Assembly (NCBI RefSeq): GCF_900109365.1
Contig: NZ_FNZR01000001.1
Location: forward strand, 124,001-188,000
Direction of reading: 5' to 3'
DNA length: 64,000 nt
Source: Parapedobacter koreensis
GTDB taxonomy: Bacteria > Bacteroidota > Bacteroidia > Sphingobacteriales > Sphingobacteriaceae
Below the pieces are notes generated by a model. It ran no database searches. It was not told the origin of the DNA and saw nothing but the letters and a program-made list of their open reading frames with translations. Within the stretch, counting starts at the first letter, position 1, and each line of letters opens with the position of its first letter. Position numbers and translations under genes: made by a program. Shown here piece after piece: positions 18,303 through 50,132 of this stretch.

Positions 18303-18884
18303 ATGAAACGGTCATTGTTATATATTGTCCCTTTATTGGTATTGGCATCTTGTTCGTCTTACAAGTACCATACGACCAAAATACAGGGCACTGATTTTTC
18401 CCAATATCACACATACGGATGGCTTCCTCCGGTAGATTCACTGTCTAAGTCTTATTTCGATAACGACATCGCGCAAGCAAACATTATGGAGACAGCAAAC
18501 CGCGAGTTGGAAGCCCGAGGATTGACCTATTCAAAGGATAATCCGGATTTATTATTCCGGTATATCGCCATCGTAAACAACAAAAACCGTCCGCTATACG
18601 GCGGATACCCTTACGGACCATGGGGCTTCTGGGGTTATAATCCGTGGATGTGGGGCCCGGGATGGGGCTTCGGTTACGGATATGGCTGGAACCGGCCGGT
18701 TGGCCAAGAACGCTACCGGGCTGGCCATATCATCATTGAAGCGAAAGATAGGCGAACGAATACCGTGATCTGGCAAGCGCGTGGCACCGGAGAAGTGAGA
18801 AACCCCGAACAGGCAATCAATAAATTACCTGAAGTAATCACCGGCGTGATGAACCAGCTTCCTCTAAAGGCGATTGATCGCTAA
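18303..18884 (+). CDS. DUF4136 lipoprotein
   Basis: A 193-residue lipoprotein (lipobox LASCS) with a DUF4136 domain: YHTYGWLPP, a DNPDLLFRYIAIV strand, and a C-terminal IIEAKDRRTNTVIWQARGTGEV segment. Between them is a Gly/Tyr/Trp-rich loop (about 100-135: GGYPYGPWGFWG and similar). Function is unknown. Its stop overlaps the stop of the convergent GntR gene by 4 bp, so the two transcripts are antisense at their ends. Confidence 0.85.
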   Translation: MKRSLLYIVPLLVLASCSSYKYHTTKIQGTDFSQYHTYGWLPPVDSLSKSYFDNDIAQANIMETANRELEARGLTYSKDNPDLLFRYIAIVNNKNRPLYGGYPYGPWGFWGYNPWMWGPGWGFGYGYGWNRPVGQERYRAGHIIIEAKDRRTNTVIWQARGTGEVRNPEQAINKLPEVITGVMNQLPLKAIDR

Positions 18885-20160: not shown

Positions 20161-21513
20161 TCATGCAAAAACGCTGTTCAAAATCAAATCTTTAACAGCG
20201 ACCGCCTCCATCTCGCCCCCTTCCTGTTGCGTGTTTGTGATCAGCACCGGATAGTAGGTTTCCGGAATATGCGTTGTCCCGTGCGAACCCTTCACCAACG
20301 TGGCATCCAAAGGAATGACATCCAGCACGTAGCGGAATCCTAATTTTTTCCGCAGCAATTTGTATGCTGCCCGTAGCTTGGAGGTCATGAACATCTCCAC
20401 GGGGTCATAGCCCGGTTTCTTGTGGATATCCACCACCCGGGCATAGTCCGGTGCAAGGTTGTCATCCAGCCAGAAGTAGTAGGTAAACCAGCTGTCGGGC
20501 CTGGCAATGGCAACCAGGTCTCCTGTCCGTTCGTGGTCAATGTGTTCCGCTTTTTTTCCGGCATTGTCCAACAATTGGTCAATACCCTCCACATTTGCTA
20601 AAAGCGCCATCACGCGCTGCTTCACTTTCTCATCCTTGGTATAGATGTGGGCGATCTGGTGGTCGGATACGGCAAACGCCTGTGAAGCTCCCGCATCCAA
20701 CAATTCCAATCCACGCTCAATACGGATGTCCAGAAGGCCTGCCTCACGCAATATCCGGTTGATGTGCACCGGGCGCGATACCGGTACGATGCCATATTCT
20801 GAAAGGATGATGATGTTTGCCCCCCGTCGCTCGTAAAAACTCACTAACCGCTCCAGCAACGTATCGATTTCCGTCACTTCCTTACCGATCTTCGTCAAGT
20901 CCGGGCCAAACTTTTGCTGGCAGTAATCCAAGTGCGGCAAGTAGACCAAGCTCAGGGTGGGGTTGTATTTCTCCTCGGTATACATCGCTGCCTCGGCAAT
21001 CCATTGCGACGACGCGATATTCGCTCCCGGCCCCCAAAAACTAAACAGCGGAAACGGACCGAACCTCGCTTGCAACTCGTCACGCAGCGACGCCGGATAC
21101 GAATAACAATCGGGGATCTTCCTGCCGTCGGCCAAGTAATTCGGGCGGGGCGTCACGGAATAGTCGGCCCCGCAATACATATTGTACCACCAGAAAAGCT
21201 GTGCGCAGGTAAAATCGGGATTAAGCCGCTTGGCTTCATCCCAAATGGATACCCCCTGCACAAGTTTGTTGGATTGCTTCCAGAATTTTATTTCACTGTC
21301 TGCCTGATCATACCAGCCGTTGCCCACGATGCCATGTCCGGCTGGCCAACGCCCTGTCACGTAAGTAGATTGCACAGCCGTAGTGACTGCCGGCAACATC
21401 GGCCTTATCTTCGTCAAGTGGTTTCTTTTCAGGTAGGCTGTCAAAAAAGGAGTCTTATCGCCAATCAATGCCGACGACAGGCCTACGACATCCAAAACAA
21501 CGGTTTTGTTCAT
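20161..21513 (-). CDS. eboF: EboF-like alkaline-phosphatase-superfamily protein
   Basis: A 450-residue protein of the type I phosphodiesterase/nucleotide pyrophosphatase branch. The nucleophile region is present (PAVTTAVQSTYVTGRWPAGHGI). The usual metal-ligand motifs are altered: the SDHG block reads LSEYGIVPVS and the PDxxGH block reads LDYCQQKFG, while GSHGTTH near residue 420 is kept. No signal peptide is seen. It is the last gene of the ebo cluster and its ATG overlaps the stop of eboE by 4 nt (ATGA), so it is translationally coupled. The natural substrate is unknown, and whether the altered site binds two metals is doubtful. Confidence 0.8.
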   Translation of the reverse strand: MNKTVVLDVVGLSSALIGDKTPFLTAYLKRNHLTKIRPMLPAVTTAVQSTYVTGRWPAGHGIVGNGWYDQADSEIKFWKQSNKLVQGVSIWDEAKRLNPDFTCAQLFWWYNMYCGADYSVTPRPNYLADGRKIPDCYSYPASLRDELQARFGPFPLFSFWGPGANIASSQWIAEAAMYTEEKYNPTLSLVYLPHLDYCQQKFGPDLTKIGKEVTEIDTLLERLVSFYERRGANIIILSEYGIVPVSRPVHINRILREAGLLDIRIERGLELLDAGASQAFAVSDHQIAHIYTKDEKVKQRVMALLANVEGIDQLLDNAGKKAEHIDHERTGDLVAIARPDSWFTYYFWLDDNLAPDYARVVDIHKKPGYDPVEMFMTSKLRAAYKLLRKKLGFRYVLDVIPLDATLVKGSHGTTHIPETYYPVLITNTQQEGGEMEAVAVKDLILNSVFA

Positions 21514-22727
21514 ACTACTTCAAATTCATGGATCACCCAAAGCAACTCCCGGGAGATCGAATCCGCAATGGGCAATTGTAAATCCCTGGGCAGCACGCCC
21601 CACGTATAGGTTTCTACTTCCAGGTGGTGGGTCAGTTGCCGATCATGCTGCATGTGCAACACTTCGATAATATCGGACTGCGTAGATTTTAGCAGCCCAA
21701 GGTCTTCCAGAAATACCGGCACATGGAAATGTGACCGCCACTCCACGGCACCGTCCTCGTATAAAGCCCCCTGTGCTTCAGGCAAGTCCCTAAAACGGTG
21801 CACATTGCCATCCCGCTGCTTTGCAAGTACTTGGTGGAGGTAGGTAGGCTCATCAAAAGCCATGAATGCCTCGCCGATGGCGAGCCGCTCGCTCTTATCC
21901 ACTGGCAACTCGGCCTTGATGGCTGCGCTGATTTGGAACTTACCTATTTTTATGCCATGGCGGTGGAGTTGGTCAGCAACTTCTTGATGGCTTTCATACC
22001 CCAAGGCAAAATGGCAAACGTCATAACAGAGCCTTATGTGGTCTTTCAGTGCGTCTTCCGCTTCAGCGTATGTCATCCCCAGTCGTTCCGTCAGGCTGGC
22101 CGCGCCCATGGGGACCAATTCCTGCGTAAACCAGGCAATGAATTCCGGACCGGTTTCCAACACCCCGTCGGGTTCCGGCTCGATATCCAAATGCAAGGTC
22201 TTGCCCGATCGTTGCCTTATGTCAATCAGGTAAGCCGCTACATCGACGATTTGTTGCGTAGCACGCTTCCGCATATCCGTCCACTGGCTTGCCGTGTCCG
22301 CATACCCGTGGCGGTATCCCAAAGGCGACGTGGAAATACCCCCATCCATGCCACCGGGAACCAGCTGTTCGAGGATGTCAAACAGCCTCAGGGTATAACT
22401 CAGCCGCTCCGCTGTCATCCAGTCGGGCGTATGCACATGCGCCTTCACCACGTCACCATGGAACGCACCAAAAGGGAAACCATTCATCGTGAAGACATAG
22501 GCATCCTGGCTCAAAAGCCAATCCTTGAAAGCGCGCAATTGCGACGGCTCTTGCAAATCCCGGCTCGCCAAGTCCGACAGCCGCAAACCGATTCCCAAGG
22601 GGTCGCTTGGCGACACTTGTTGCTTGATCAGCGGAAAGGTTGCTTTCAGGATGTCGAAATGGTCTTGCCAGCTTTCCCCGCCATGGATATTGGTACAATA
22701 GGTAAGGTGTCCGTATTTCGTCAGCAT
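21510..22727 (-). CDS. eboE: Metabolite traffic protein EboE (TIM-barrel)
   Basis: A 405-residue xylose-isomerase-like TIM-barrel protein beginning MLTKYGHLTYCTNIHGGESW, the typical EboE start. Other markers are FTMNGFPFGAFHGDVVKAHVHTPDW, LHLDIEPEPDGVLE and VCYDVCHFALGYE-like metal-site segments (RLCYDVCHFALG). EboE belongs to the ebo cluster, implicated in cyanobacteria in moving secondary-metabolite precursors to the periplasm. The reading frame extends upstream to 22985 inside eboD, but the ATG at 22727 lies 4 nt after the eboD stop and is clearly the start. Confidence 0.9.
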   Translation of the reverse strand: MLTKYGHLTYCTNIHGGESWQDHFDILKATFPLIKQQVSPSDPLGIGLRLSDLASRDLQEPSQLRAFKDWLLSQDAYVFTMNGFPFGAFHGDVVKAHVHTPDWMTAERLSYTLRLFDILEQLVPGGMDGGISTSPLGYRHGYADTASQWTDMRKRATQQIVDVAAYLIDIRQRSGKTLHLDIEPEPDGVLETGPEFIAWFTQELVPMGAASLTERLGMTYAEAEDALKDHIRLCYDVCHFALGYESHQEVADQLHRHGIKIGKFQISAAIKAELPVDKSERLAIGEAFMAFDEPTYLHQVLAKQRDGNVHRFRDLPEAQGALYEDGAVEWRSHFHVPVFLEDLGLLKSTQSDIIEVLHMQHDRQLTHHLEVETYTWGVLPRDLQLPIADSISRELLWVIHEFEVV

Positions 22728-22731
22728 GGCT

Positions 22732-23895
22732 TTACAATTGAACTTCAAAATCGTTTTGCAGCATAGAAGCAGCGGCAAGCACCCTGCTGGCATCCATCGT
22801 ATGGACCTCCATCCCCTTCCCGATGCCTTGCAGTAGCATAATGGTGAGTCTTCCCCCCAGGTGTTCCCTAAATTCATCCAGCCCGATAAGCAACGGATGA
22901 TCAGTACCTTCTGCATCCAGCAGCGGATGGAACACCGGCAAGCCCAAGGCTTGCAGCAGTTGCACAATGCGTTGTGCATCGGCATGGGTCAGGTAGCCCA
23001 TTAAATAGGAATAGCTACTATCCAAGGCGATGCCGATGGCCACGGCTTCGCCATGCATGACTTCAAAACCGGAGAGTTGCTCCAACTTGTGGGCGCTCCA
23101 GTGACCAAAGTCCAACGGCCGGGATGAGCCGAACTCAAACGGATCTGCACCTGCAATATGTTGAAGGTGCAATTCTGCACACCGATAGACGAGGTATTCC
23201 ATCGCGTCGGCATCCCGGTTAGTTAATGCGCCCGCATGTTCGGCAATCCATTCAAAAAAAACGGCGTCCTTTATCAATGCCACTTTTACCGCTTCGGATA
23301 TCCCCGAACGCCATGCCCGATCCGACAAAGACTGCAAAAAAGAAAAGTCATTAAACACGGCAAACGGCGGACTGAACGTACCGATGAAGTTCTTTTTACC
23401 TAAATAGTTGATGCCATTTTTTACGCCTATCCCTGAGTCATTCTGGGACAGTACCGTAGTCGGGATACGGATATGCCGGATCCCCCGGTGGGAAATAGCA
23501 GCCGCATAGCCTACCGCGTCCAATACAGCCCCGCCGCCGATGCCGATGACATAAGAATGACGGTCTATACCATGCCTATCTACCGCATCGATAATTCGGT
23601 CGACAAGGGTATGATCATTTTTAGCCTGCTCCCCACCATTTACCACCATCAGTTCATCGGCCAACACGATGCCCTGCAGCGATTCAAAATACGCACGGAT
23701 CTCCTGCAAAAGATTTACATGGTGCTCCACCACGCCATCATCCACCACCACCAGGGCTTTGGCCATGATGTCCGTAGCATGGCTTGCAAAAAAACGGGCC
23801 AGCACAGGATTGGCTATGGAAAACAAGGCCTTGGTAAAATGTACCTGATACCGGTAGGCCACCGTAAACGATTGATTAATCGATTCCTTAATCAT
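22732..23895 (-). CDS. eboD: EboD, 3-dehydroquinate-synthase-like sugar phosphate cyclase
   Basis: A 387-residue member of the dehydroquinate synthase/sugar phosphate cyclase superfamily. The NAD-binding loop IGGGAVLDAVGYAA and the TTVLSQNDSGIGVKNGINYLG segment are present. The residues expected for zinc binding survive: Glu in GISEAVKVALIKD and His in LDFGHWSAHKLEQ and VMHGEAVAIG. The enzyme could therefore be catalytic on a sugar phosphate, giving a cyclitol-like product, but its substrate in ebo clusters is unknown. A second ATG at 23904 is possible. It overlaps nothing and is 58 bp downstream of eboC. Confidence 0.9.
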   Translation of the reverse strand: MIKESINQSFTVAYRYQVHFTKALFSIANPVLARFFASHATDIMAKALVVVDDGVVEHHVNLLQEIRAYFESLQGIVLADELMVVNGGEQAKNDHTLVDRIIDAVDRHGIDRHSYVIGIGGGAVLDAVGYAAAISHRGIRHIRIPTTVLSQNDSGIGVKNGINYLGKKNFIGTFSPPFAVFNDFSFLQSLSDRAWRSGISEAVKVALIKDAVFFEWIAEHAGALTNRDADAMEYLVYRCAELHLQHIAGADPFEFGSSRPLDFGHWSAHKLEQLSGFEVMHGEAVAIGIALDSSYSYLMGYLTHADAQRIVQLLQALGLPVFHPLLDAEGTDHPLLIGLDEFREHLGGRLTIMLLQGIGKGMEVHTMDASRVLAAASMLQNDFEVQL

Positions 23896-23953
23896 ATGAC
23901 ACATTATTCACTATTCATCACGCTTATTGCGTTCAAATCCCCAAAAAAGTCCG

Positions 23954-24847
23954 TTAAGTAACCGAAAACATTTTTGACAACCAAATGGATATCGGAAAAA
24001 GTGACAATACGACGACGGTAAGCCCCCATAAACCAGCGGCAGCGACCCAAACAGCATTCATGAAAATCAGTGCGAGCACACCATATTTAACGGACTTGCG
24101 GATATCCAGTGCGGCGGTCGTTCGGATAGCCTTCAGCAATGGCAGGTATATCATCACGGCAAAGAGCATCAGCACGACCACGCCTAACCAACGCTCGCTT
24201 TTCAGGATGCCGAAATAGGCAATGAGCCCGATGACGACGGCGTATAGCACGGCCGAAAACAACAGCGGACTTTTTTTGCCGCCATGCACTTCTCCCCGGC
24301 TGATGGTGGTGACTGCCGCAATGTAGATGACCGGTATGCCCGCCAGCATCCAGGTTTCGGGCAGGGCAGTGGAAAACAGGCTCATCCCCAATAGGAGATT
24401 CAATCCCCTGCACAATCCCATAGCAATAGGGCCTACCACGACGTGGTGCTTGGCCCATTTGTCGTACAACATGCACATCAATACGATGGAGATCGCTATC
24501 AAGCATGAAATGCAGCCCAAGAAACCCGCTGCAAACACCCCCAATGCAAACAAGGCAACGCCAAGCAAAGCAGCGTGCTTCCGCGGTACCTTTCCACTTG
24601 GGATGGGGCGTTCCGGCCGTTCCATGGCATCCAGCTTGGCATCGAACACATCGTTGAATACTACGCCGCCACCGTATAGCCCTATCGTAGCCAATACAAG
24701 CAGCATCCATGACGCAGCGGGGTGTTGCCACGCACCATCAGCCAGGTAAAGCGTAGCAATAGCAGCCCCTGCTATCACATCCGATACGGCCGTGACGACA
24801 TTTGCAGGCCGCGCAAGCTGGATATATGCTTTCCACACAATGCCCAT
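23954..24847 (-). CDS. eboC: EboC, UbiA-like membrane prenyltransferase
   Basis: A 297-residue polytopic inner-membrane protein with about eight or nine hydrophobic helices. The prenyl-diphosphate Asp motif NDVFDAKLDAMERPERPIPSG is intact. The second UbiA motif is less typical: LYDKWAKHHVVVGP then GLCRGLNLLLG. The family transfers prenyl groups to soluble or membrane acceptors; the Ebo substrate is unknown. ATG 24847 is used; a GTG two codons upstream is the alternative. Stop of eboB lies 8 nt before it. Confidence 0.9.
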   Translation of the reverse strand: MGIVWKAYIQLARPANVVTAVSDVIAGAAIATLYLADGAWQHPAASWMLLVLATIGLYGGGVVFNDVFDAKLDAMERPERPIPSGKVPRKHAALLGVALFALGVFAAGFLGCISCLIAISIVLMCMLYDKWAKHHVVVGPIAMGLCRGLNLLLGMSLFSTALPETWMLAGIPVIYIAAVTTISRGEVHGGKKSPLLFSAVLYAVVIGLIAYFGILKSERWLGVVVLMLFAVMIYLPLLKAIRTTAALDIRKSVKYGVLALIFMNAVWVAAAGLWGLTVVVLSLFPISIWLSKMFSVT

Positions 24848-24855
24848 TTGCACGG

Positions 24856-25836
24856 TTAGGAGATGATAATAGAATCGGTATCCCGCCGGGGTTGTTGCCC
24901 ACCCCGCAGTATCGAGTTGCCTGCAAACTTCTTGCCCTGATCAATGCTTGTCTTTTCGTCAAGCAGGGCTTCGTCCAGCTGCCCGCTTTGGGAAAATGCT
25001 GCCAAGGCGTTTTGGTAGCACACCTGCTCAATGGTTTCCTTGGGTATCCCGCTTTTGACCATCAGTGCAGCGGTTTTGGGTACCGCCAACGGGTCGCTGA
25101 TTCCCCAGTCGGCCGCTGAGTTGACCATGATACGTTCCGGCCCATACTGCCTGACAAGTTCCACCATTCGTTCATTGCCCATCTTGGTAAAGGGGTATAT
25201 CGTAAAAGCAGCCCAAAAACCTCTATCTAATACTTCTTTGACCGTTTCTTCCGTATTGTGGTCAATGATCACCATTCCTGGATCCAGCCCATGTTCGAGG
25301 GCAATATCCATACTCCGGGAAGTGCCTTTGGTTTTGTCACGGTGGGGGGTATGCACCTGTACGGGAAGCCCCGCTTCTTTGGCAAGTTCCAGTTGCAGCC
25401 GGTAATATTTCTCTTCAGCCGCAGTCTGGTCATCAAAGCCAATTTCACCGACACCCACTACCCCCTCCTTGTAAATGAAAAAAGGCAGTAATTCCATGAC
25501 CTGTTCAGCCAATGCTTCATTGTTGGCTTCGCGGGAATTCAATCCAATCGTACAGAAATGTTTTATCCCGAACTGGGAAGCCCTAAACCGCTCCCAGCCA
25601 ATCAGGCTGCTGTAATAATCCCTAAAAGTATCAATACCCGTACGGGGTTGTCCTACCCAGAAAGCCGGTTCGATGACCGCAATTACCCCGGCATCGGCCA
25701 TCGCCTGGTAATCGTCTGTCGTCCGCGAAACCATATGGATGTGCGGATCGAAAAACCGCAGCCCTTTCACCAAATCCAGTTCCAACGCTACCCGCTGTCC
25801 CATCGATGCCCGATCGCGCTCGTTATAATTACACAT
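24856..25836 (-). CDS. eboB: EboB, TatD-family metal-dependent hydrolase
   Basis: A 326-residue TIM-barrel amidohydrolase. Metal-ligand motifs are visible: FFDPHIHM (HxH), VGVGEIGFDD (Glu), PVQVHTPHRD (His), VIIDHNTEE (His) and NSAADWG (Asp). The catalytic centre looks complete. The reading frame begins at TTG 25845, which overlaps the eboA stop; ATG 25836 is preferred. The product may act on a phospho- or acylated intermediate of the ebo metabolite, which is inference. Confidence 0.9.
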   Translation of the reverse strand: MCNYNERDRASMGQRVALELDLVKGLRFFDPHIHMVSRTTDDYQAMADAGVIAVIEPAFWVGQPRTGIDTFRDYYSSLIGWERFRASQFGIKHFCTIGLNSREANNEALAEQVMELLPFFIYKEGVVGVGEIGFDDQTAAEEKYYRLQLELAKEAGLPVQVHTPHRDKTKGTSRSMDIALEHGLDPGMVIIDHNTEETVKEVLDRGFWAAFTIYPFTKMGNERMVELVRQYGPERIMVNSAADWGISDPLAVPKTAALMVKSGIPKETIEQVCYQNALAAFSQSGQLDEALLDEKTSIDQGKKFAGNSILRGGQQPRRDTDSIIIS

Positions 25837-25841
25837 ATGCT

Positions 25842-26720
25842 TCAATTAGTTTGATCCAGCCAGTCATCCCACGGTGTACCTGCTGTATCCAATAAATCCG
25901 TTAATTCGCTATTCCTTGTTATAAAATCAGCTGCCGGGCCAAAGTTGCTTTGCCGGAAAGCATACACAATCGCCTTGTGCGTCAAAAGCGCCATATCTTC
26001 CTGCAAGATCTGCACCATCAGCTGGTGCGCACGGTCATCCAGGTATGGGGCAGCCAATATCCATAGCATGGGATTGATATTCCTTTTGGCAGCATGGAGC
26101 TCATAGGCATAGTCTACCAACGCCTGCGCCAGCCGAAGGTTGTTACGTCGTTTTAGTCCAATGATGTTGGGGATGTCCTCATCTGTGAAAAATGCCTTCA
26201 GCACCAGCTGGTTCCATGCCCCTTCATCCAAAAACTGGCTTGGGTAGTGGTTGTTGACGATGATAGCCTGCCTTACCGGAGCCATATTACTTCGGATGCC
26301 TTCCATGCAACGAAGCTGCCATGCCGCTGGATAGTGGTAGATAGGCAATGCCGCATAGAGCGCCGCCAGTTCTTCCACGTCGCCGTAGCTAAACAGCCGC
26401 TCTATCAGCGATAGGTAGCTTGGCTGTTCCAACGCAGGAACCCTCGTCAGTACCCAGACCCGTACCAGCCGTACCAACGGCCAATCCTTTACCACCAAAG
26501 GCAATGGAGCGGTTTCTGTATGGGTTGGTCCATCCAACGTAATAAATTCCGCTTTACCGGCGGATTTGACCGTTCGGGGAATCGCTGTAAAGATCCTTGC
26601 CAAGGTATTTGGCTGCGGGTCGGCAATAAAATGGCCTACCTGATCGCGCAAAGCTTTCCATTCGCCGTCAGCGACATAGGAAGCCACTTGATTGGCAAAG
26701 CTGGCGTTTACATCGTTCAT
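25842..26720 (-). CDS. eboA: EboA domain protein
   Basis: A 292-residue, largely helical soluble protein matching EboA: WPLVRLVRVWVLTRVP, YGDVEELAALYAALPIYHYP and WNQLVLKAFF near the middle, and DDRAHQLMVQILQEDMALLTH near the end. No catalytic motif is known. It is the first ebo gene and ends within the start region of eboB. The DUF1080 gene ends only 19 bp upstream of its ATG, so the ebo genes are probably read with the sugar genes. Confidence 0.85.
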   Translation of the reverse strand: MNDVNASFANQVASYVADGEWKALRDQVGHFIADPQPNTLARIFTAIPRTVKSAGKAEFITLDGPTHTETAPLPLVVKDWPLVRLVRVWVLTRVPALEQPSYLSLIERLFSYGDVEELAALYAALPIYHYPAAWQLRCMEGIRSNMAPVRQAIIVNNHYPSQFLDEGAWNQLVLKAFFTDEDIPNIIGLKRRNNLRLAQALVDYAYELHAAKRNINPMLWILAAPYLDDRAHQLMVQILQEDMALLTHKAIVYAFRQSNFGPAADFITRNSELTDLLDTAGTPWDDWLDQTN

Positions 26721-26739
26721 AGGGGTTATGAGATTCCTG

Positions 26740-27525
26740 TTAAAGGTTTTTCAATCGTATATTCCTGAAGGCAATTTTCATCGGCGGACCAACGTGCACC
26801 TGAAATCCCATCAAGCCTTCAAATTTACGATTTTTCTCGTCATCGTCAACCACTTCACTCATTAATGTTCCATTGATGTAATGCTGTAAGCGGTTTCCTG
26901 TTGCCACAATGCGGAGTTCATTCCAGTCCTCGTGTTTGATAAGTGTCTTCAGCGAATCGCGCCCCCCTAATGAGCCGGTTTCTACCCCTGCCGTCCAAAT
27001 ATTGCCCTTGGCATAATCACTGATTTCCCCTTCTACCGGTGGGAGATGCATTTGTTGGCCCGGAAAGGCCAATATCGTACGGCCACGTTCTTCATAATTC
27101 TGTCCGGTATACGTATTCGCAGCATCAATATCCGCTTGGTATCCCCGCAAGGCAAAAGGGACGTCGGGCAGCTCTTCGCTCCGGTAGTTAAACCCGCTAT
27201 TACCTTGCCCGGTCAAACGATACTCGGCTATCAATTCAAAGTCTGCTGGCCGACCACCCTCCCAGATGATAAATGAATTTCTTTCCAGTTCTTTACCCGG
27301 TACAATTTCGCCGACGATGGCACCATCTTCCACGCGCCAAAGTGTCGAATCGCCACGCCATCCAGCCAGACTGGTTCCGTCAAAGAGCGCTACAAACTCC
27401 TCTTGGCCCATTGTGCTCACCTCCTGCTGGTTGCCCCCTGAAGTACAGCTTATGAACGCCGAAACCAACAACACAAATCCTCCGGCGCTTATCCAGCTCC
27501 GGAGGCAATTTCCTGATCTTAACAT
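26740..27525 (-). CDS. DUF1080 lipoprotein (3-keto-disaccharide/glycoside hydrolase family)
   Basis: A 261-residue lipoprotein (lipobox FISCT) with a jelly-roll concanavalin-like domain. It has the family start FVALFDGTSLAGWRGD, NSFIIWEG, GNSGFNYRSEE, GYQADID and the closing LMGFQVHVGPPMKIAFRNIRLK. Proteins of this family (3-keto-disaccharide hydrolases) cleave glycosides that have first been oxidised at C3 of the sugar. Its predicted periplasmic or surface location means the oxidised substrate must be outside the cytoplasm. It is the last of four sugar genes and leads directly into eboA. Confidence 0.88.
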   Translation of the reverse strand: MLRSGNCLRSWISAGGFVLLVSAFISCTSGGNQQEVSTMGQEEFVALFDGTSLAGWRGDSTLWRVEDGAIVGEIVPGKELERNSFIIWEGGRPADFELIAEYRLTGQGNSGFNYRSEELPDVPFALRGYQADIDAANTYTGQNYEERGRTILAFPGQQMHLPPVEGEISDYAKGNIWTAGVETGSLGGRDSLKTLIKHEDWNELRIVATGNRLQHYINGTLMSEVVDDDEKNRKFEGLMGFQVHVGPPMKIAFRNIRLKNL

Positions 27526-27526
27526 C

Positions 27527-28678
27527 TTATTCTACCGCTGTATCTTTCCAACTGCGCGATTTGGCCGACTCGATGACCGCTTCACAGACCTTTTGTGTTT
27601 CATATGCATTTTTGAAGTCGGGCTGACAAGGCTCACCCGTCTCCAGGCTTTTCAGGAAATCGGCTGCTTGGTGGACGAAGCTGTGTTCATAGCCAATGCC
27701 CAAGCCCGGAACCCACCATTTTTCCATATAGGGATGGTCCCCATTTGTCACGTGGATGGAACTCCAACCTTTGACATCCGAGTCTACCCCGTTATCGAAA
27801 TATTCCAGTCGGTTCAAATCATGCAAATCCCAACGGATGGAGGCATGTTCTCCATTAATTTCAAAGGTATAGAGGGCCTTATGTCCGCGCGCATAGCGGG
27901 TGGATTCAAACAATCCCAGTGAGCCATTTGCAAAGCGGCAATGGAAAATACACGCATCGTCTATCCCCACTTCCTGCAATTTACCGGTATCCAGGTGGAC
28001 ACGTTGTTTCACGAATGTTTCAGTAACGGCCGAAACTTCCGTAATTCCGCCATTCAGCCACATCGCGGTATCGATGCAATGCGCAAGCAGATCCCCGGTT
28101 ACGCCAGATCCCGCCACGTCGACATCCATCCGCCAAGCGGCATCCCCACCTTGCGGAAGGTCAGCATTGATGGTCCAATCTTGCAGGAAATTTGCGCGGT
28201 AGTGAAAAATCTTGCCCAACTTGCCCGAGGCAATGATTTTTTTGGCCAAGGTGACAGCAGGCAGGCGCCGATAATTATACCATACCGTGTTGGTCACACC
28301 CGCTTTTGAAACGGCGTCAACCATCTTTTTGGCTTCGTCCAGGTTCCGTGCGAGTGGTTTTTCCGTAAGCACCATTTTTCCGGCCTCAGCAGCTGCCACG
28401 GCGATTTCGGCATGCAGGTGGTTGGGCGTACAAATATCCACGGCATCGATGTCGTCACGGGCAATGAGCTTCCGCCAATCCGTTTCATACGAGGCAAAGC
28501 CCCATTGGTCTGCGAAGGCCTTTACTTTTTCCTCCCGCCGCGAACATACCGCCTGCAAAACCGGTTGGTACTGCAATTCGGGGAAGAAATTGGGCACTCG
28601 ATTGTATCCGTTTGAATGGGTACGGCCCATGAAGCCGCAACCAATTAATCCTATTCTCAGTTTCTGCTTATTACTCAT
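27527..28678 (-). CDS. Gfo/Idh/MocA-family NAD(P)-dependent sugar oxidoreductase
   Basis: A 383-residue oxidoreductase. The Rossmann start [18 protein letters not shown], the [15 protein letters not shown] motif with its active-site Lys, and the GDLLAHCID segment with the catalytic His are intact. It has no Tat or Sec signal, so it is cytoplasmic. It probably oxidises or reduces a sugar at C3, matching the DUF1080 and isomerase neighbours. The start at 28678 has a strong SD-like AAGGAG just upstream, unusual in this phylum. One nucleotide separates its stop from the start of the DUF1080 gene. Confidence 0.92.
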
Positions 28679-28708
28679 ATTTTTCTCCTTTATTATATCG
28701 TGCTGTGA

Positions 28709-29743
28709 TTATTCCTGCCATCCATGCGCTTCACGAACACTGATTAGTGCTGCCAAAATATCATTCCATGTCTGTTGTTGGTTCAATACCGCATTGGGAA
28801 ACATGCACCCATCCCAGCAGATGTGGTTGAACGCCTTGGTCAGCTGCCCCTGCTCATCACGCAGCCAATGCCCGGCGTCTTTGGGAATATCCAATTTGCC
28901 GTTCGGATCATTGGGCAAGCAGTGCCTACCGGTCTTGTCGTGCGAGCCGGAGCCGAAAACCGTCCCGTCATTCTGTGCCACGTGGAAATCTATCGTCCAT
29001 GGACGCAATGCCTTGGTAAGCACCCGTAGCCCTTCGGTAATTGCCGCGCGATCGCCCCATTGGAAGTTTTCAGGCAGGATACGATCTTCTGGTTTATTGT
29101 AGCCGAGCAGGTAAAGAAACGTGTGGGACATATCAGCCTGAAAACCAATATTCGGCCGGTCTACCGCTTCCAGCGTAGCTATCATGGCTTTCCAACTGTG
29201 CATACCCCCCCAGCAGATTTCCCCTTCCGCTGCCAATCGCTCCCCATAATCGGCCGCCACGTCACATGCTTCGCGGAATGTCTCGGCAATAATTTTGGTA
29301 TTTCCAGCAGGGTCTTCCGCCCAAGCGGCAGGAGAGCAGGAAGAATCGATGCGAACCACCCCATAGGGGCGGATACCCAATTCCCTCAACTGCTGACCGA
29401 ACTGGCAGGCTTTGCGCACCATGTCAACGAAAACCGTCCGGCTTTCCTTGCTTCCAAGCGCCGACCCAGCCCAAATAGGTGCCACCAGCGAACCGATTTT
29501 CAAGCCATGCCCAGCTACCTTGTCGGCCAATCGCTTCACTTCGTCCGTGCCCCCATTGATGTTGACGTGTGGCTCCAACAGGCCAATATCCACGCCGTCA
29601 AACTTCACACCATTGACCTCCGCTGCCGCCGTATAAGCCAGCAAATCGTCAAAAGGTATCACGGGTTCGGAATCCGGACCCTTGCCCACGATACCAGGCC
29701 AAGTGGCGTTGTGCAGTTTCGGGAAATTATTCGTTGTACTCAT
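28709..29743 (-). CDS. Sugar phosphate isomerase/epimerase family TIM-barrel protein
   Basis: A 344-residue AP-endonuclease-2/xylose-isomerase-like TIM barrel. Visible parts are [19 protein letters not shown], a [14 protein letters not shown] metal-site Glu/His segment, [16 protein letters not shown] and [10 protein letters not shown]. In 3-keto-glycoside loci such enzymes process the released keto sugar. The ATG at 29743 is used; the frame begins 6 nt earlier with GTG. It lies 30 bp upstream of the Gfo/Idh gene. Confidence 0.88.
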
Positions 29744-29782
29744 ATTCACTGTTTTTATTGATTACACATGCTTTTCCGTAGG

Positions 29783-31000
29783 CTATGCCAATACGAGGTC
29801 CGGGTTGCCCGGGCCGAAATGCTTCAGCATCACGATGGGATCTGTCTTCGATAGGTTCGTTATCCGTACACCCGACACCGCCGCAGCCTCGCTCACGAAA
29901 TACTCGTCGTGCGTCAGCTGCCCGTAGCGGATAAGCGACGGTGTCTCGATGTCCCATACACCCAGCTTCCCTCGGCCCTGCATCATGATCAGGCCGTAGG
30001 CCGCTCCGTCATGGATCGTCACCGTCGCCCCCGGCAGCACCGTCAGCTCCTTCGCGCTAAACGCCTCCGATTTGTAGCACACCCACTTCTCCACGTAACC
30101 TGACTCCAGCATCTCCAACTCCGAACGCACGGGAAGCGGTGCCATGAAACGGTTCGCCATCGTATACGGATCCACGTTCAGCTCCCAATCCAGCACAGCT
30201 ATCAGCTCGTCGTAGTCCCCAATCCTGTCCTGGGGTGTACCGTTCCACAGCAGCTCTTCTGGTATTACCGCCTCGTTTACCAGCGACTGGTACATCGCAA
30301 ATACGTCCGAAGCCTTCTGGGGCTCGTATGTACATAGGCTTCCCGGCGCATGAAGCAGCCCCGGTGGGACGTCCCAGCCTGTTCCTGGCTCCAAGCGGTA
30401 CGCCTGCGAGTAGTTCGTTATCTTGTTGTCCCCCTTCGTGAAGTTCACCAGGCAGTCCCTTATCTGATCCCGGCTTGTCCCAGGCGCAATCCCGATGAAC
30501 GTGTATGGGAAATCCCCGCCGTGGTTGTTCAGCTGCGGCGGAAAATAATACGCCTCCGGTTTCCCCTGCTGCCCAATCAACGCCGCTTTCTCGTCGTTGT
30601 GGTGGACGTGGTGTGGCAAGGGCCCCATGTTGTCGAAAAACTTCGAGTACATCGGCCAGGCCCCGTAGGCCTCCCACAGGCGCGCGCCAATGAGTTCGCC
30701 CTTCAGCTCATCCACCGCATCCCGCAGCAAAAATTGCTGCTCCCCACTCCCGGCGCCCAGCACCACCTTGCTCAAGCCCTCGTCTTCCCCCGTCAGCGGG
30801 CCGTTCTTCGCAGGCGTCGTGGAGGATAGCCAACGTTCGTCTATACCCCCACGTATGCCCCCCAATACATAATAATCATCCGGGTGGAGCTTGATCCGAC
30901 GCCCCGGCACACAGAACGAACGCGGGACCCACGTCGGTGCCAACCGTAAAATGCCCTCGCCCTCTTCAATTGCTTGCTTCGATAGCTTGCTTGTTTCCAT
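29783..31000 (-). CDS. Cupin protein resembling type I phosphomannose isomerase
   Basis: A 405-residue protein whose central part carries a cupin metal site like that of type I phosphomannose isomerase: LPHHVHHND (His ligands), EAYYFPP (Glu) and DVPPGLLHAPGSL (His). A second half (about 280-405) looks like another cupin barrel (VTIHDGAAYGLIMMQGRGKLG). A sugar-isomerase role fits the neighbours, but the substrate is unknown. Codon use differs from neighbours: strong preference for G/C in third positions (GAG, AAG, CTG, TAC), which also creates long spurious open frames on both strands. ATG 31000 is preferred over the in-frame Met at 31036 because it precedes ETSKLSKQ and the upstream part is A/T-rich. 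Confidence 0.72.
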   Translation of the reverse strand: METSKLSKQAIEEGEGILRLAPTWVPRSFCVPGRRIKLHPDDYYVLGGIRGGIDERWLSSTTPAKNGPLTGEDEGLSKVVLGAGSGEQQFLLRDAVDELKGELIGARLWEAYGAWPMYSKFFDNMGPLPHHVHHNDEKAALIGQQGKPEAYYFPPQLNNHGGDFPYTFIGIAPGTSRDQIRDCLVNFTKGDNKITNYSQAYRLEPGTGWDVPPGLLHAPGSLCTYEPQKASDVFAMYQSLVNEAVIPEELLWNGTPQDRIGDYDELIAVLDWELNVDPYTMANRFMAPLPVRSELEMLESGYVEKWVCYKSEAFSAKELTVLPGATVTIHDGAAYGLIMMQGRGKLGVWDIETPSLIRYGQLTHDEYFVSEAAAVSGVRITNLSKTDPIVMLKHFGPGNPDLVLA

Positions 31001-31077
31001 ATGTTGATTGATTTGATATTTGGTTATTACCTTCAAATTTAAAAATTTCAGCCGTAAACAGGCATTAAATTGTTTGA

Positions 31078-32577
31078 TTAATAGCCACTATTTTGTGTTA
31101 AGTTTGTGTTATTCCGCACTTCGCTGGTCGGTATGGGAAACAGCAACTCCCGCTCCTTCAATACCGGCCCATAGGTAAACCGATGTCCTACGTAGTCCTC
31201 AAATTGTTTGGTTGCTACATTATACGCCTTGCGTAAGCGCACCATATCATACCAAGTTTTGTTTTCGAAGCACAGCTCATACCAGCGTTCCCGCCAAATG
31301 GCTTCCCGTAGCTGCTCTTTCGAGAGGCCTTCGAGATCGTCCAATTCCGCCCGCGACCGGATAGCATTGACGGCATCATACGCTGCCGTTGTAGGCCCGT
31401 TCACCTCATTGGATGCTTCCGCATACGTCAACAGCACATTGGCGTAGCGTATTACCGGCCAATTCAGGTCGCTGTTGGCCGTGGTGGTTTGGGCCACCTC
31501 GTCAAAAAGCTTCCAGATGAAATACCCACCAAGATCCACCACCTGATTCCGGTTGGATTCGTGGGTAAATTGGGTAAAGAAAAATTGCTTTTCCTCGGCG
31601 CGCAAGTCACCCGGTTCATACGATTCCACGAAGTCTGCCGTCGCATAAATGCCACCCGTTTCATCGGAATATTGCGAAATGTTTTTATTGTAAGGGATAA
31701 TCAATACCTGCCAATTCGGGACAATCAGCTGGGTTTTGAACTGGATCATGAAAATATTCTCGATGATGTTCTTCATACTGGGGTCATGCAATGCAGCGTA
31801 GTCATCAAACAGTTCAAACTCCCCGGAATTGATAACCTCTTCCGCCTTTTCAGCCGCCAGGCTATAGTAAGCTTCGCCCTTCTGCAATGGATAGCCTGCC
31901 ATCGTCAGGTATACTTCCGCCATCAATGATTTTACAGCCCCCAGGCTCACCCTTCCCGATGCGTTTTTCCATGCCAACCCCGCAGCTTCTGCGATGGTAA
32001 GATCATCGATGATTAAGTTATAAACCGCCTCCGGATCAGCTTGTGCCGGACGCAATTGCTCCGATTGCAAGGACATGGGTTCGGTGACCAATGGAATGTG
32101 GCCAAACATCCTGATCAGCTCAAAATAATACCAGGCTCTCAAAAAATGGGCTTCGCCCAACAGCCTCGTCGCTTCTTCGCTGTCCATGGTAATCTCCGGG
32201 ATTTTGGCAATGGACAGGTTCGCGTTGCCTATTCCCCGATAATAAGATGCCCAAAAAGTCTGGCCATATCCATTGTCGGATGTATTGTTCAAATCCTTGA
32301 CGAAATAACTGTTGACCGCTTGCCCTAAATCTGTAGCAGCCAGACCGGTGGCAAACTCGGTCATTGCCCAAGCACCACCCCCAAAACCGCTTGATAGCGG
32401 ATCCCGCATGCTCGCATAAATCGCATTCACCGAGCTTCGGGCATGCGCCGGTTGGGTAAAATAATTCTCTACGGTAAAGTTACTGGGATCCGACTCATTC
32501 AGAAATTCGGAGCAGCTGGTCAATAACACCCCAACACTGAGGGTCATTGTCATGTATTTTATTGCTATTGTTTTCAT
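31078..32577 (-). CDS. SusD/RagB-family nutrient-binding lipoprotein
   Basis: A 499-residue outer-membrane lipoprotein (lipobox LLTSCSEFLNESDPS). It shows the TPR-like SusD pattern: FLRAWYYFELIRMFGHIPLVTEPM, the VYNLIIDDLTIAE repeat, NWPVIRYANVLLTYAEASNEV and the C-terminal LLFPIPTSEVRNNTNLTQN. SusD lids the SusC pore and captures the glycan. The gene follows susC by 37 bp and leads into the cupin gene (77 bp). Confidence 0.95.
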   Translation of the reverse strand: MKTIAIKYMTMTLSVGVLLTSCSEFLNESDPSNFTVENYFTQPAHARSSVNAIYASMRDPLSSGFGGGAWAMTEFATGLAATDLGQAVNSYFVKDLNNTSDNGYGQTFWASYYRGIGNANLSIAKIPEITMDSEEATRLLGEAHFLRAWYYFELIRMFGHIPLVTEPMSLQSEQLRPAQADPEAVYNLIIDDLTIAEAAGLAWKNASGRVSLGAVKSLMAEVYLTMAGYPLQKGEAYYSLAAEKAEEVINSGEFELFDDYAALHDPSMKNIIENIFMIQFKTQLIVPNWQVLIIPYNKNISQYSDETGGIYATADFVESYEPGDLRAEEKQFFFTQFTHESNRNQVVDLGGYFIWKLFDEVAQTTTANSDLNWPVIRYANVLLTYAEASNEVNGPTTAAYDAVNAIRSRAELDDLEGLSKEQLREAIWRERWYELCFENKTWYDMVRLRKAYNVATKQFEDYVGHRFTYGPVLKERELLFPIPTSEVRNNTNLTQNSGY

Positions 32578-32614
32578 CGCTTCTTAGTTTTGATAGTACC
32601 TTGTTACCTTGTTC

Positions 32615-35600
32615 CTACAACCCGATGTTCACGCCCAACATAAATACCCTTGGCCGTGGATAATCGTAGAGGCCGTATCCCTGACCGAAGGCGGATCCGG
32701 AATTGGAAACTTCGGGATCGAAACCACGGTACTTGGTGGATACGAAGAAGTTTTGTACCGATCCGTACAACCGCACCCGTTGCAATTTCAATCGCGAAGC
32801 GAGCTGTGCGGGGAATGCGTAAGCCAACAAGAGATTCCGGCCCCGGATAAATGACCCATCCTGCACTTTGTGGCTATCGTCATACGTGTCATAACCGGCT
32901 GGAATGGGCCGTACCTGTGCAATGGGCGTATTCTGGTTCGTTTCGGTCCACGCATTCAGCACCGTTTTGTAACTATTGGCAATACCCTGCCGGTCCTCGA
33001 TCGAGTGGATGCTTCGGTCAAGCACGTCATTGCCGTACATGTATTGCAAATCTACCGTCAACGACCAGGCTTTGTATTGGAATGTGTTCAGGAAGGTGCC
33101 AAATCCATCCGGGATACCTTTTCCGATAATTGTACGGTCGTTGTCATTGATAATGCCATCATTATTCAGGTCCAAGAACTTTACGTCGCCCGGCAATTTG
33201 TTATAGATTGCTGCTTGCTCGGCTTCGGCCGTAGACCATGTGCCCAAGTGTTCCCGTCCGAAGAACGATCCCACAGGCTCGCCTACCCGGATGATCGTGG
33301 CTGCTCCCGGAAAAATATCGCTGCCCCCGGAAAGTGCCAGCACCTTGTTCTTATTAATCGAAATGTTGAATGTCGTACTCCAGGAGAAATTGTCCGACTG
33401 CAAATTGGTGGTATTCAAACCAATCTCGATCCCTTTGTTTTCCATGCTGCCAATATTCGTGAATATGCTTCCATATCCACTGCTCAGCGGCAGCGGTGCA
33501 TCCAACAACATGTCGTCCACTTTTCTGCGGTAGAGGTCCACTTCGAGGTTTACGCGGTTTGCGAAAAGTCCCAGTTCCAGCCCGACGTCTACTTGATGGG
33601 TTTTTTCCCATTGAAGTGCCGAATTAGCCATCCGTCCCGATCCGATTCCGATTTCGCGGGCCCCATTAAAGATGACCGAATAATTGCTCATGCCAGCCAA
33701 CGCCCGGTATGAGGGAATTTCGGAGTTGCCGGTAGCCCCGTAGCTTGTACGGAGTTTCAGGTTTGAGATAGCGGGTATATCCTTCATGAACTCCTCATCG
33801 CTTATCCGCCACGCCAATGCCGCCGACGGGAAAAACGCATATTGGTTTTGCTCACCAAATTTCGACGATCCGTCCATCCGTCCGGTAAAGGTCACGAGGT
33901 ATTTGCCCATGAGGGAATAATTTATCCGCGTAAAATAGGAGTTCAAGCCATAGGCTGACGCCCCGGAGCTGGGAGCCAATGCCGTAGCCCCGGCACCCAG
34001 GTTATTATACTGGAAGTACACATCGGAGAAGCCCTCGGCATTGGCTTGGCTGTTGAAACTGCCAACATGCTGCCACGAAAGGCCCAGCATTGCATTCAAC
34101 GAATGGATACTCCCAAATTCCTTATTATAAGTCAGGTAGTTTTCAAACTGCCACGAATTAAATCGGTTGTTGGCAACGTATGCATTACCATTGGTAGAAA
34201 TGTATTGCAGCCCCGCGGCGGCAAAATAATCATTACGCTGATTGATGATGTTCGTTCCAAGCGTAGACCGAAGTTCGAGGCCTTCCATCAACCGGATATT
34301 GGCATACATATTTCCCAGCATGGTCTGTGTACGCAGAAAATACAGCCGTTCTTCGGCTATGCGGAAAGGATTATCACCCCCCTCCATACCCGGATAATCC
34401 CGGTTGCTTGCCCATGAACCGTCGGCATACCGCACGGGTATGATAGGCAAGGCCTCCAGGATCTGTCGCACCATGGTGATGCCGCCACCATCCAACTGAT
34501 CCACCTGCTTCTCATCTTGGTCGTTATAACTGAGCGATCCACCTACTTTCAACCAATCCTTAATCTCCGTGTCGAATACAAAGCGCCCGGCATAGCGTTT
34601 TTGCCACGAACCATATATAATGCCATTCTCGTTACGGTAGCTCAGGAATGCCCCATAGGTTCCCTTTTCGTTGCCATTGGTAAAACCGAGCTGATGGTTT
34701 TGCGTAAAAGCATCCTGGAACGCTTCCTCCTGCCAGTTGATGTCATATAATGGGTTTCCTTGCCCATCAAAAAGCAGGGGGTTGGTACGTTTAGTACGGG
34801 GATCCACATATTTCGTGCCCGTTGCCCAGCCGACCGGGTCGTATTTCTGCGCATTGGCGTAAGCAATCTCCTCCACTTCCAAAAATTCCCTTGCATTGAG
34901 CACGGGCAACAATTTGGGAGCCGTCCCCATGCTGAAATCAGCATCGTAGGTCAATCCACCGCCGCCGGACGTCCCCCGTTTGGTCGTCACCAAAATAACG
35001 CCGTTTGCGCCACGGGCGCCGTAAATAGCTGTTGAGGAAGCATCCTTCAGCACTTCGATGGAAGCAATATCGTTAGGGTTGAGGTAGTCAATGGGCGTAC
35101 TGCCATTTTGCAGTCCGGCCGCGTTTAAAATGACTCCATCAATGACATACAATGGGTTGTTGGACACACTGACGGAGCTGGCCCCACGGATACGGACATT
35201 GGTCCTTCCACCAGGCCGTCCAGAGCTTGACGAAACGTTGACACCGGTTACCCGGCCTGCCAATCCCTGATTCAGCGAGGATGCAGGTCGTTCCTGAAGG
35301 GCTTCGGCACGCACCGTCCCTACCGCACCGGTCAGGTCGGACTTCCGCTGGGTTCCATAGCCCACTACCACCACTTCATCCAGGTCGGTTTGGCTATGCT
35401 CCATCACTACGTTTAGCGAAGCACCGGCAACACGCACCTCCTGCGAGTCGTAACCTACACCGCTGAACACCAAGATAGCCCCTTGGCTTTGTTGTAAGGT
35501 GATCGTGTATTCGCCCTGGTCATTCGTGCTGGAACTGTTATTCGTCCCCTTCTCGGTCACGGTCACGCCACTGATTGGCACTTGCCCGGTATCGGTCACC

Positions 35601-35761
35601 CGGCCGTTAACGGTTTGTTGGCGGTTGGGTCCGGCCCATACCGTCTGAACCATCGCTATCATCAATGTCACAAGCAGGTAGCTGCTCGCAACCCTTCGAA
35701 GCTGCCGTCTTTTTCCGACAGAACCATGTTGGTTGATTGGTTTATCATTACACATATTCAT
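32615..35761 (-). CDS. SusC/RagA-family TonB-linked outer-membrane transporter
   Basis: A 1048-residue TonB-dependent transporter. After a long basic N-region and signal (about 1-44) come a CarboxypepD_reg-like domain (about 50-130, NGRVTDTGQVPISGVTV), a TonB-box-like DEVVVVGYG, a plug (about 150-270; LIDGV-type VIDGVILN, DIASIEVLKDASSTAIYG, GARGANGVILVTT) and a barrel ending RPRVFMLGVNIGL. It pairs with SusD downstream. It heads the 15.6-kb minus-strand run ending with eboF, so the imported glycoside is probably the substrate of the 3-keto genes. Confidence 0.96.
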   Translation of the reverse strand: MNMCNDKPINQHGSVGKRRQLRRVASSYLLVTLMIAMVQTVWAGPNRQQTVNGRVTDTGQVPISGVTVTEKGTNNSSSTNDQGEYTITLQQSQGAILVFSGVGYDSQEVRVAGASLNVVMEHSQTDLDEVVVVGYGTQRKSDLTGAVGTVRAEALQERPASSLNQGLAGRVTGVNVSSSSGRPGGRTNVRIRGASSVSVSNNPLYVIDGVILNAAGLQNGSTPIDYLNPNDIASIEVLKDASSTAIYGARGANGVILVTTKRGTSGGGGLTYDADFSMGTAPKLLPVLNAREFLEVEEIAYANAQKYDPVGWATGTKYVDPRTKRTNPLLFDGQGNPLYDINWQEEAFQDAFTQNHQLGFTNGNEKGTYGAFLSYRNENGIIYGSWQKRYAGRFVFDTEIKDWLKVGGSLSYNDQDEKQVDQLDGGGITMVRQILEALPIIPVRYADGSWASNRDYPGMEGGDNPFRIAEERLYFLRTQTMLGNMYANIRLMEGLELRSTLGTNIINQRNDYFAAAGLQYISTNGNAYVANNRFNSWQFENYLTYNKEFGSIHSLNAMLGLSWQHVGSFNSQANAEGFSDVYFQYNNLGAGATALAPSSGASAYGLNSYFTRINYSLMGKYLVTFTGRMDGSSKFGEQNQYAFFPSAALAWRISDEEFMKDIPAISNLKLRTSYGATGNSEIPSYRALAGMSNYSVIFNGAREIGIGSGRMANSALQWEKTHQVDVGLELGLFANRVNLEVDLYRRKVDDMLLDAPLPLSSGYGSIFTNIGSMENKGIEIGLNTTNLQSDNFSWSTTFNISINKNKVLALSGGSDIFPGAATIIRVGEPVGSFFGREHLGTWSTAEAEQAAIYNKLPGDVKFLDLNNDGIINDNDRTIIGKGIPDGFGTFLNTFQYKAWSLTVDLQYMYGNDVLDRSIHSIEDRQGIANSYKTVLNAWTETNQNTPIAQVRPIPAGYDTYDDSHKVQDGSFIRGRNLLLAYAFPAQLASRLKLQRVRLYGSVQNFFVSTKYRGFDPEVSNSGSAFGQGYGLYDYPRPRVFMLGVNIGL

Positions 35762-41880: not shown

Positions 41881-41902
41881 AGTCTTTTTTATTAATAAAT
41901 AA

Positions 41903-42943: not shown

Positions 42944-42983
42944 ATGATCATAAATTATTGGTTTTCAATCGGTATTATTTATT

Positions 42984-44036: not shown

Positions 44037-44048
44037 ATCGTTGTACGC

Positions 44049-46736: not shown

Positions 46737-46895
46737 AAAAGTTTGCATATATCTGTTAGTACAATTGTTTTGTTTATGCGAATGTAACGATTCTGGCAGT
46801 GGTTACCATCCTGGATTTTGTTCAAAATCATTAAGCCGGATCTGCTTCGTTGCATCGTCTATTCAGCGCTATAAGTTGGAGTATAGGTAACCCAA

Positions 46896-50124: not shown

Positions 50125-50132
50125 CGTGCTAA

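Follow-up and report, generated by a model that had tools for sequence, protein, structure and literature searches.

A keto-sugar gene block joined to an ebo cluster in Parapedobacter koreensis and the near-strict nesting of the block within ebo across sampled genomes

Introduction

Gene clusters of the ebo type are found across several bacterial phyla and also in the plastids of some algae. Yurchenko et al. defined ebo, proposed an isoprenoid-cyclitol product and left inserted genes aside (PMC5133447). In Nostoc punctiforme, ebo is needed for export of the scytonemin monomer, and metabolite movement at the inner membrane was reported; the tested ebo mutants kept the monomer in the cytoplasm, while ScyE, the protein that carries out the oxidation, is located in the periplasm (PMC6282210). 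In the literature that we found, this is the one worked-out role of ebo, and it comes from one cyanobacterium. Here we describe a run of twelve genes in Parapedobacter koreensis that joins a block of putative keto-sugar genes to an ebo cluster. The run occupies positions 20161-35761 of the window, by which we mean the whole analysed stretch of 64,000 nucleotides (contig NZ_FNZR01000001.1, positions 124,001 to 188,000 of the forward strand).

The closest described systems for the other genes of the run concern 3-keto sugars. Gfo dehydrogenases and TIM-barrel "sugar phosphate isomerase" proteins act on 3-keto sugars in the breakdown of levoglucosan and plant glycosides (PMC7676230, PMC10628242), and DUF1080 proteins were proposed to hydrolyse 3-keto sugars in the periplasm (PMC9007349). 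The window resembles the levoglucosan lgd pathway and the Agrobacterium glycoside beta-elimination operon in combining a Gfo dehydrogenase with TIM proteins. It differs from both in adding a cupin of the phosphomannose-isomerase fold, a DUF4432 protein, a heme protein, DUF1080 and ebo, and from the lgd pathway in that its Gfo falls far below the levoglucosan dehydrogenase cut-off. In common with the DUF1080 3-keto-disaccharide hydrolases BT2157 and CCNA_01705, its DUF1080 protein has a PF06439 domain and a lipoprotein-type N-terminus. It differs from the BT2156-2160 type of cluster in that its Gfo is neither BT_2158- nor BT_2159-type, and its cupin is rare in a class-wide sample (8 of 395 genomes). 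The ebo part shares with the ABCDEF clusters of Bacteroidota and cyanobacteria the six genes, their order and a partner set that includes a putative periplasmic oxidising protein, but the partner is the keto-sugar block and not the scytonemin genes.

Results

Two units in one gene run

An earlier note on this DNA, made from its letters alone, had described twelve genes on one strand from susC to eboF. This layout was verified, with all twelve on the minus strand and with intergenic gaps of 1-77 bp, provided that the cupin starts at the ATG at 31000. The DUF1080 stop lies 19 bp from the eboA start, 4-bp overlaps occur at eboA/eboB and at eboE/eboF, and the family calls for SusCD, TIM, Gfo/Idh, DUF1080 and ebo held up in Pfam and NCBIfam searches. 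Besides SusCD, the run is made of two units, the keto-sugar block (cupin, TIM, Gfo/Idh and DUF1080) and a complete eboABCDEF cluster. The genes, in the direction of reading, are:

32615..35761, minus strand: susC-like TonB-dependent receptor (Pfam TonB_dep_Rec_b-barrel, Plug and CarbopepD_reg_2)
31078..32577, minus strand: susD-like lipoprotein (Pfam SusD_RagB, 122.7 bits)
29783..31000, minus strand: cupin with a phosphomannose-isomerase fold ("x417"), the marker of the block (Foldseek; no sequence family)
28709..29743, minus strand: xylose-isomerase-like TIM barrel protein (PF01261, AP_endonuc_2, 49 bits)
27527..28678, minus strand: Gfo/Idh/MocA dehydrogenase, levoglucosan-dehydrogenase-like (NF052479, 348 of 650 bits, below cut-off)
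26740..27525, minus strand: DUF1080 protein, 3-keto-disaccharide hydrolase family, lipoprotein-type N-terminus (PF06439, 121 bits)
25842..26720, minus strand: eboA (NF035938, EboA domain, 141 bits, cut-off 50)
24856..25845, minus strand: eboB, TatD-like hydrolase (PF01026, 62 bits)
23954..24853, minus strand: eboC, UbiA-like prenyltransferase (NF035940 equivalog, 370 bits, cut-off 250)
22732..23904, minus strand: eboD, sugar-phosphate-cyclase family, 3-dehydroquinate-synthase type (NF004852, 570 bits, cut-off 333)
21510..22727, minus strand: eboE with corrected start (NF035939 equivalog, 474 bits, cut-off 250, from residue 94 of the open reading frame)
20161..21513, minus strand: eboF, phosphodiesterase family (PF01663, 200 bits)

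The assignment as an ABCDEF-type ebo cluster is based on EboC, EboD, EboE and the EboA domain exceeding their cut-offs, a PF01663 match for EboF, a TatD-like EboB and the order A to F on a single strand. The EboA_family subfamily cut-off was missed (157 of 320 bits), although the EboA domain cut-off was passed. The eboE reading frame as called (21510-22985) is 86 codons too long at its 5' end; the conserved start lies at about 22727, 4 bp past the eboD stop. The TonB-dependent receptor and the SusD lipoprotein form the tandem pair of a SusCD importer.

By its layout, the run appears to be an operon-like fusion of the block to ebo. A scan with the promoter motif TTTG-N17-25-TAnnTTTG in its strict form gave no match on the minus strand between 18500 and 38000. 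Speaking against a single transcript are a sigma-70-like 9-of-12 match at 26849-26822 and a TAnnTTTG match at 26827, both within DUF1080 and 100-130 bp before eboA; matches of both kinds also arise by chance in the region of the run. Counts from a sigma-70 scan (29 versus 21.5, standard deviation 4.1) and from a terminator scan (19 versus 19.8, standard deviation 5.4) were set aside as evidence.

Genomes with the block nearly always carry ebo

Scoring the cupin for the block and EboE for ebo, we found EboE in 22 and the cupin in 8 of the 395 genomes of the class sample, and 8 of the 8 cupin genomes had both (7 of 7 without the window genome). Counted by genus, the comparison is 6/6 versus 16/197, which has a chance of 1e-7 if genera are independent. 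An order sample around G581 gave EboE in 56 of 136 genomes and the cupin in 27, all 27 with EboE (by genus 14/14 versus 31/72, chance 9e-7 if genera are independent). EboE is present in 33 of the 36 cupin genomes of the family sample (EboE in 95 of 301 genomes), in 17 of the 19 cupin genomes of genus g16 (EboE in 19 of 89), and ebo was found in 36 of 36 named genomes with the cupin. These samples overlap and their counts are not phylogenetically independent; together they hold 99 distinct cupin genomes, of which 96 carry EboE and 97 carry ebo when EboC is counted in G148. Three cupin genomes are without EboE: G148, which has EboC over the cut-off, and G195 and G300, which have neither.

Across the sampled genomes, the block thus depends on ebo near-strictly, whether or not the two are linked. 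In twelve unlinked cases on a shared contig, the two loci lie 31-2897 kb apart in contig coordinates. The converse fails: 62 of the 95 EboE genomes of the family are without a cupin gene, so ebo does not need the block. Since nesting runs in one direction only, with the block inside ebo, the need is that of the block for ebo and not the reverse.

Within genus g16, changes in the two units tend to coincide. A quickly built rpoB tree, which includes 88 of the 89 genomes, gives 8 changes each for the cupin and EboE. Seven independent pairs of genomes differ in the cupin, and EboE differs in the same way in 6 of them, in the opposite way in 0 and not at all in 1 (median p 0.031, range 0.031-0.0625). 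For G074, G249 and G192/G682, in which block and ebo are unlinked, the rpoB tree shows neighbours that are without both the cupin and ebo. A candidate case of joint decay in G686, with stops in EboE and a split cupin, was rejected, since rpoB is split there as well and an assembly error is most likely.

We found no published report of the dependence of the block on ebo in a literature search that left most subscription papers and all preprints out of scope. There is no mention of Gfo, SusD, TonB or TMEM220 in the main text of PMC5133447 as accessible, of oxidoreductase, sugar, SusD or TMEM220 in the accessible text of the farnesyltransferase paper (PMC9235831), or of oxidoreductase or TMEM220 in that of the Phycorickettsia paper (PMC6092422).

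Joining of block and ebo in relatives

The earlier note had named a failure of the linkage to recur in relatives, together with a separate promoter and transcript start between DUF1080 and eboA, as the grounds for giving up its proposal. Comparison of ebo loci across the host family (301 genomes, EboE in 95; 94 neighbourhoods besides that of the window) showed that the linkage does recur. Of the 95 family ebo loci, 17 have TIM, Gfo and DUF1080 immediately before eboA; they belong to genera g1, g15 and g16. The cupin is part of the block in 16 of these; in the 17th (L035) it lies upstream within the same stretch. The gap at the junction is 11-47 bp in 15 of the 17 and 394-433 bp in both g15 loci, where a small membrane reading frame intervenes. 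In a FastTree tree of EboB-F, the 17 linked loci share a single supported group with five unlinked ones (22 family sequences in all) and are most simply explained by one ancestral joining with later separations.

A separate scan covered 80 loci of named genomes that encode a close relative of the cupin; ebo comes after the block in 3 of them, all Cyclobacteriaceae-type. Here it is Gfo that precedes ebo, with DUF1080 upstream, an order that differs from that of the window, and the Gfo-eboA gap of about 250-570 bp leaves room for a promoter. Their ebo clusters group in the EboB-F tree with the ebo of genomes whose block sits elsewhere, which would most simply make this joining a separate event. 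That the junction recurs, with 17 cases among the 95 family loci and 3 among the 80 of the other scan, argues that it is more than chance.

The place that ebo holds in the window has also had other occupants. G078, of the window genus, has a divergently placed heme protein, then MFS, SusC, SusD, cupin, TIM, Gfo and DUF1080, two alpha-L-rhamnosidase genes (GH78-type and GH106) and GntR, and its ebo is located elsewhere (L038). In the window and in L035, ebo sits between DUF1080 and GntR, and in L035 a 65-aa stretch (18729-18923) that is 75% identical to the GH106 protein remains between eboF and GntR. Gene order in these loci indicates that ebo and sugar-cleaving genes have both held the same slot. 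We gave up the idea that DUF1080 and GntR are immediate neighbours in G078 and that ebo entered the window locus at precisely this point, because the two rhamnosidase genes stand between them. As a side observation, the rhamnosidases in this slot (L336 and the GH106-like stretch of L035) hint that the original diet of the block was rhamnosides.

Among the family ebo loci L041-L127, a membrane protein of about 123 aa is often encoded next to eboA, for example in L041 and at L052:6551-6910 and L054:7849-8214 (minus strand); its L041 member belongs to the TMEM220 family (PF15071, 83 bits). Of the 78 family ebo loci that do not have the block, 64 carry it immediately upstream of eboA. It also lies between DUF1080 and eboA in both g15 loci, and TMEM220-like stretches follow eboF in Cyclobacteriaceae-type loci (L160:20669-20935 and L172:21076-21186); none was found in the window or in the g1 and g16 linked loci. 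TMEM220 is also a human protein. It may be that the TMEM220-like protein represents an unrecognised ebo gene. A literature search on TMEM220 and DUF4432, again with most subscription papers and all preprints out of scope, gave nothing relevant.

Composition of the block and predicted compartments

Away from ebo, the block keeps its composition. In 55 cupin loci with full flanks, the neighbours include DUF4432 in 53, TIM in 53, Gfo in 53, DUF1080 in 52, the heme protein in 37, SusC in 23 and ebo in 3. The block is thus a stable unit of Bacteroidota in which SusCD is optional and to which ebo is seldom adjacent. Two further genes lie outside the coordinates first given for the run:

42984..44036, minus strand: DUF4432 protein, aldose-1-epimerase-like (PF14486, 289 bits)
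44049..46748, minus strand: PVC-type heme-binding protein, 899 aa, with CxxCH and a lipoprotein-type N-terminus (TIGR02603, 102 bits, cut-off 68)

Gene order assigns both to the block, because they stand just before the cupin in 13 of the 13 linked g15 and g16 loci; in G028 the whole stretch is contiguous across two overlapping loci. The window heme protein reaches 75 of 122 bits with the TIGR02604 N-terminal domain, below the cut-off, and matches its L086 homologue at 57.6%.

SusCD behaves differently. The SusCD pairs neighbouring the g15 and g16 loci are 29-36% identical to that of the window, compared with 67-80% for the cupin, TIM and Gfo, and SusCD was not found in the stretch compared for 4 of the 17 linked loci (L036, L053, L086 and L112). 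SusCD as the central element of the locus was rejected, as it is replaced or not found at relatives' loci.

Neither Pfam nor NCBIfam models matched the cupin. Its predicted structure has a mean pLDDT of 68.6 with a 42-row alignment (14 close rows gave 35.4), and this moderate-confidence model matches type I phosphomannose isomerases (Foldseek E 3.7e-10, TM 0.4-0.6), so that the name cupin stands at the level of fold. Against PDB sequences, the cupin profile gave only weak matches, at E 0.03 and above, and TIM found no relative at E 0.01. Gfo matches 4h3v and 6a3f in the PDB. It lies below every NCBIfam cut-off, the levoglucosan dehydrogenase model being best (NF052479, 348 of 650), and can be called no more than levoglucosan-dehydrogenase-like; with the BT_2158- and BT_2159-type families it scores 42 of 750 and 30 of 650 bits.

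By a simple motif test, the window DUF1080 protein combines its domain with an export signal, as expected for 3-keto-glycoside processing. A lipobox and a hydrophobic N-terminus are present in 13 of 17 DUF1080 orthologues of the linked loci, and the window heme protein shows both. The export signal is absent from the cupin, TIM and Gfo in every linked orthologue and likewise from the window DUF4432 protein. The test is crude: by hydrophobicity, EboF is picked up too, in 17 of 17 cases, as is EboD in 1 of 17, and the lipobox part alone is selective. On these signals, the cupin, TIM, Gfo and DUF4432 are predicted to be cytoplasmic and the heme protein and DUF1080 to be periplasmic lipoproteins.

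Discussion

We tentatively read the run as a keto-sugar block fused to ebo, with the block as a client of ebo. The family roles of Gfo, TIM and DUF1080, together with the predicted compartments, suggest that a keto-sugar is probably processed by the block in both the cytoplasm and the periplasm. The block would oxidise a sugar or glycoside and cleave or remodel it by way of a keto intermediate. The parallel with scytonemin, in which the tested ebo mutants keep the monomer in the cytoplasm and ScyE is periplasmic, suggests that ebo serves a membrane step for the block too: it would supply an inner-membrane step by which the intermediate passes between the cytoplasmic and periplasmic halves, probably via a prenylated cyclitol-type product. 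The block is a second, chemically different system for probing ebo, and ebo and block can be deleted separately in cultured bacteria. Its near absence from sampled genomes that have no ebo, even though the two are often far apart, offers a concrete handle on ebo function.

Several observations weigh against this reading. Gfo reaches no NCBIfam cut-off, enzyme and substrate assignments are drawn from families, and the compartment test, crude as it is, flags EboF in 17 of 17 through its hydrophobicity part. A flavobacterial EboC farnesylates quinoline acids, pointing to aromatic rather than sugar acceptors (PMC9235831). G195 and G300 (L331 and L332), which are rpoB sisters, keep the block without EboE or EboC above the cut-off. 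The pair test in g16 involves just 7 pairs and a quick tree, co-loss in linked genomes can be a single deletion, and the slot after DUF1080 in G078 (L336:1060-5894) holds the two rhamnosidase genes and no ebo, so that the slot is not reserved for ebo. A shared habitat is also compatible with the nesting, which was compared for the cupin and ebo only, with no control gene.

It is possible, though somewhat unlikely in our judgement, that the block modifies or salvages what ebo makes, a cyclitol-type ring from EboD being oxidised, epimerised or degraded by Gfo, TIM and the cupin. Nesting of the block inside ebo fits this equally well, and an isoprenoid-cyclitol product has been proposed for ebo (PMC5133447). 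Inositol and ketose enzymes are known in the families to which Gfo, TIM and the cupin belong; Gfo matches inositol 2-dehydrogenase models (below cut-off) and scyllo-inositol dehydrogenase structures, and an accessory second TIM of the window matches ketose epimerase and, weakly, IolE models, all below cut-off. The best Gfo match, however, is to levoglucosan dehydrogenase and not to an inositol dehydrogenase, and DUF1080 and the heme protein look periplasmic whereas EboD shows no lipobox. Salvage by non-producers would moreover be expected to be common, yet the block occurs without ebo in 2 of 99 genomes.

We regard as doubtful to the same degree an indirect association, in which shared habitats or lifestyles bring the two units together and shared regulation or chance makes them adjacent, with no common metabolite. 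Both units are patchy and accessory, as the 62 of 95 family ebo genomes without the cupin illustrate, and the rhamnosidase genes in the ebo slot of G078 favour such an association as well. Set against it are the near-strict, one-way nesting in four overlapping samples, the paired gains or losses within one genus (g16) and the joining in two lineages with different gene orders.

Less likely still, periplasmic oxidation systems might need a cofactor or carrier made by ebo, either diffusible or held in the membrane. The keto-sugar block of Bacteroidota with its heme protein and the oxidation of scytonemin in cyanobacteria would then be two unrelated clients of one ebo molecule, and nesting inside ebo would be enough to identify such clients.

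The earlier note had gone further and taken a glycan or glycoside imported by SusCD, or its cyclitol derivative, to be the ebo ligand. This is quite improbable. In its favour, SusCD lies directly upstream of the block in the window, three further block loci from the genus (L035, L040 and L336) have it at 82-91% conservation, and SusCD of some kind neighbours the block in 23 of 55 full-flank loci. A diet of plant glycosides would also fit the rhamnosidase genes close to the block (window 47491-50139; L336). Against it, in 14 of 17 linked loci SusCD was not found in the stretch compared or is just 29-36% identical, and it is seen in 23 of the 55 full-flank loci, while the block stays. Moreover, ebo is common without the block, which is unexpected if ebo needed such a ligand. 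The keto-sugar genes and ebo do belong together, as that note proposed, by recurrent linkage and genome-level dependence. Its imported glycoside finds little to recommend it, because SusCD is the replaceable and least constant part of the locus and none of the evidence here identifies the ligand.

Neighbouring genes

Around the run and the two block genes upstream of it, the window contains:

18881..19912, minus strand: GntR regulator with a periplasmic-binding-like ligand domain, after eboF (PF00392; PF13377 just below cut-off)
36025..37269, minus strand: MFS transporter, kept with the block in the window genus (PF07690)
37778-40948, plus strand: 1056-aa protein that combines DUF7133, HEAT repeats and cytochrome c with a GDSL lipase domain; its gene and the MFS gene are divergent
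41029..42027, minus strand: second TIM protein, ketose-3-epimerase-like, accessory (NF051856, 160 of 300 bits)
41903..42943, minus strand: ThuA family protein, accessory (PF06283)

Relatives of the GntR regulator occur in L035, L106, L112 and L336 and in 5 of the 55 full-flank block loci, including block loci without adjoining ebo. The MFS transporter is found at the 78-87% identity level in L035, L036, L040 and L336, and ThuA in 13 of the 55 full-flank loci. Homologues of the 1056-aa GDSL/heme-type protein recur near the block in other families, at 12 of the 55.

Beyond the genes at 41029-46748 lie a 167-aa reading frame, a GH106-family protein and an arabinose/fucose-isomerase-like protein. 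The GH106 rhamnosidase-family gene (47491-50139) and the isomerase-like gene share a strand at 47491-51551 and are possibly a neighbouring sugar locus. Further along, at 52627-53709, a SocA/Panacea domain is encoded together with an MqsA-antitoxin-like domain that scores below its cut-off.

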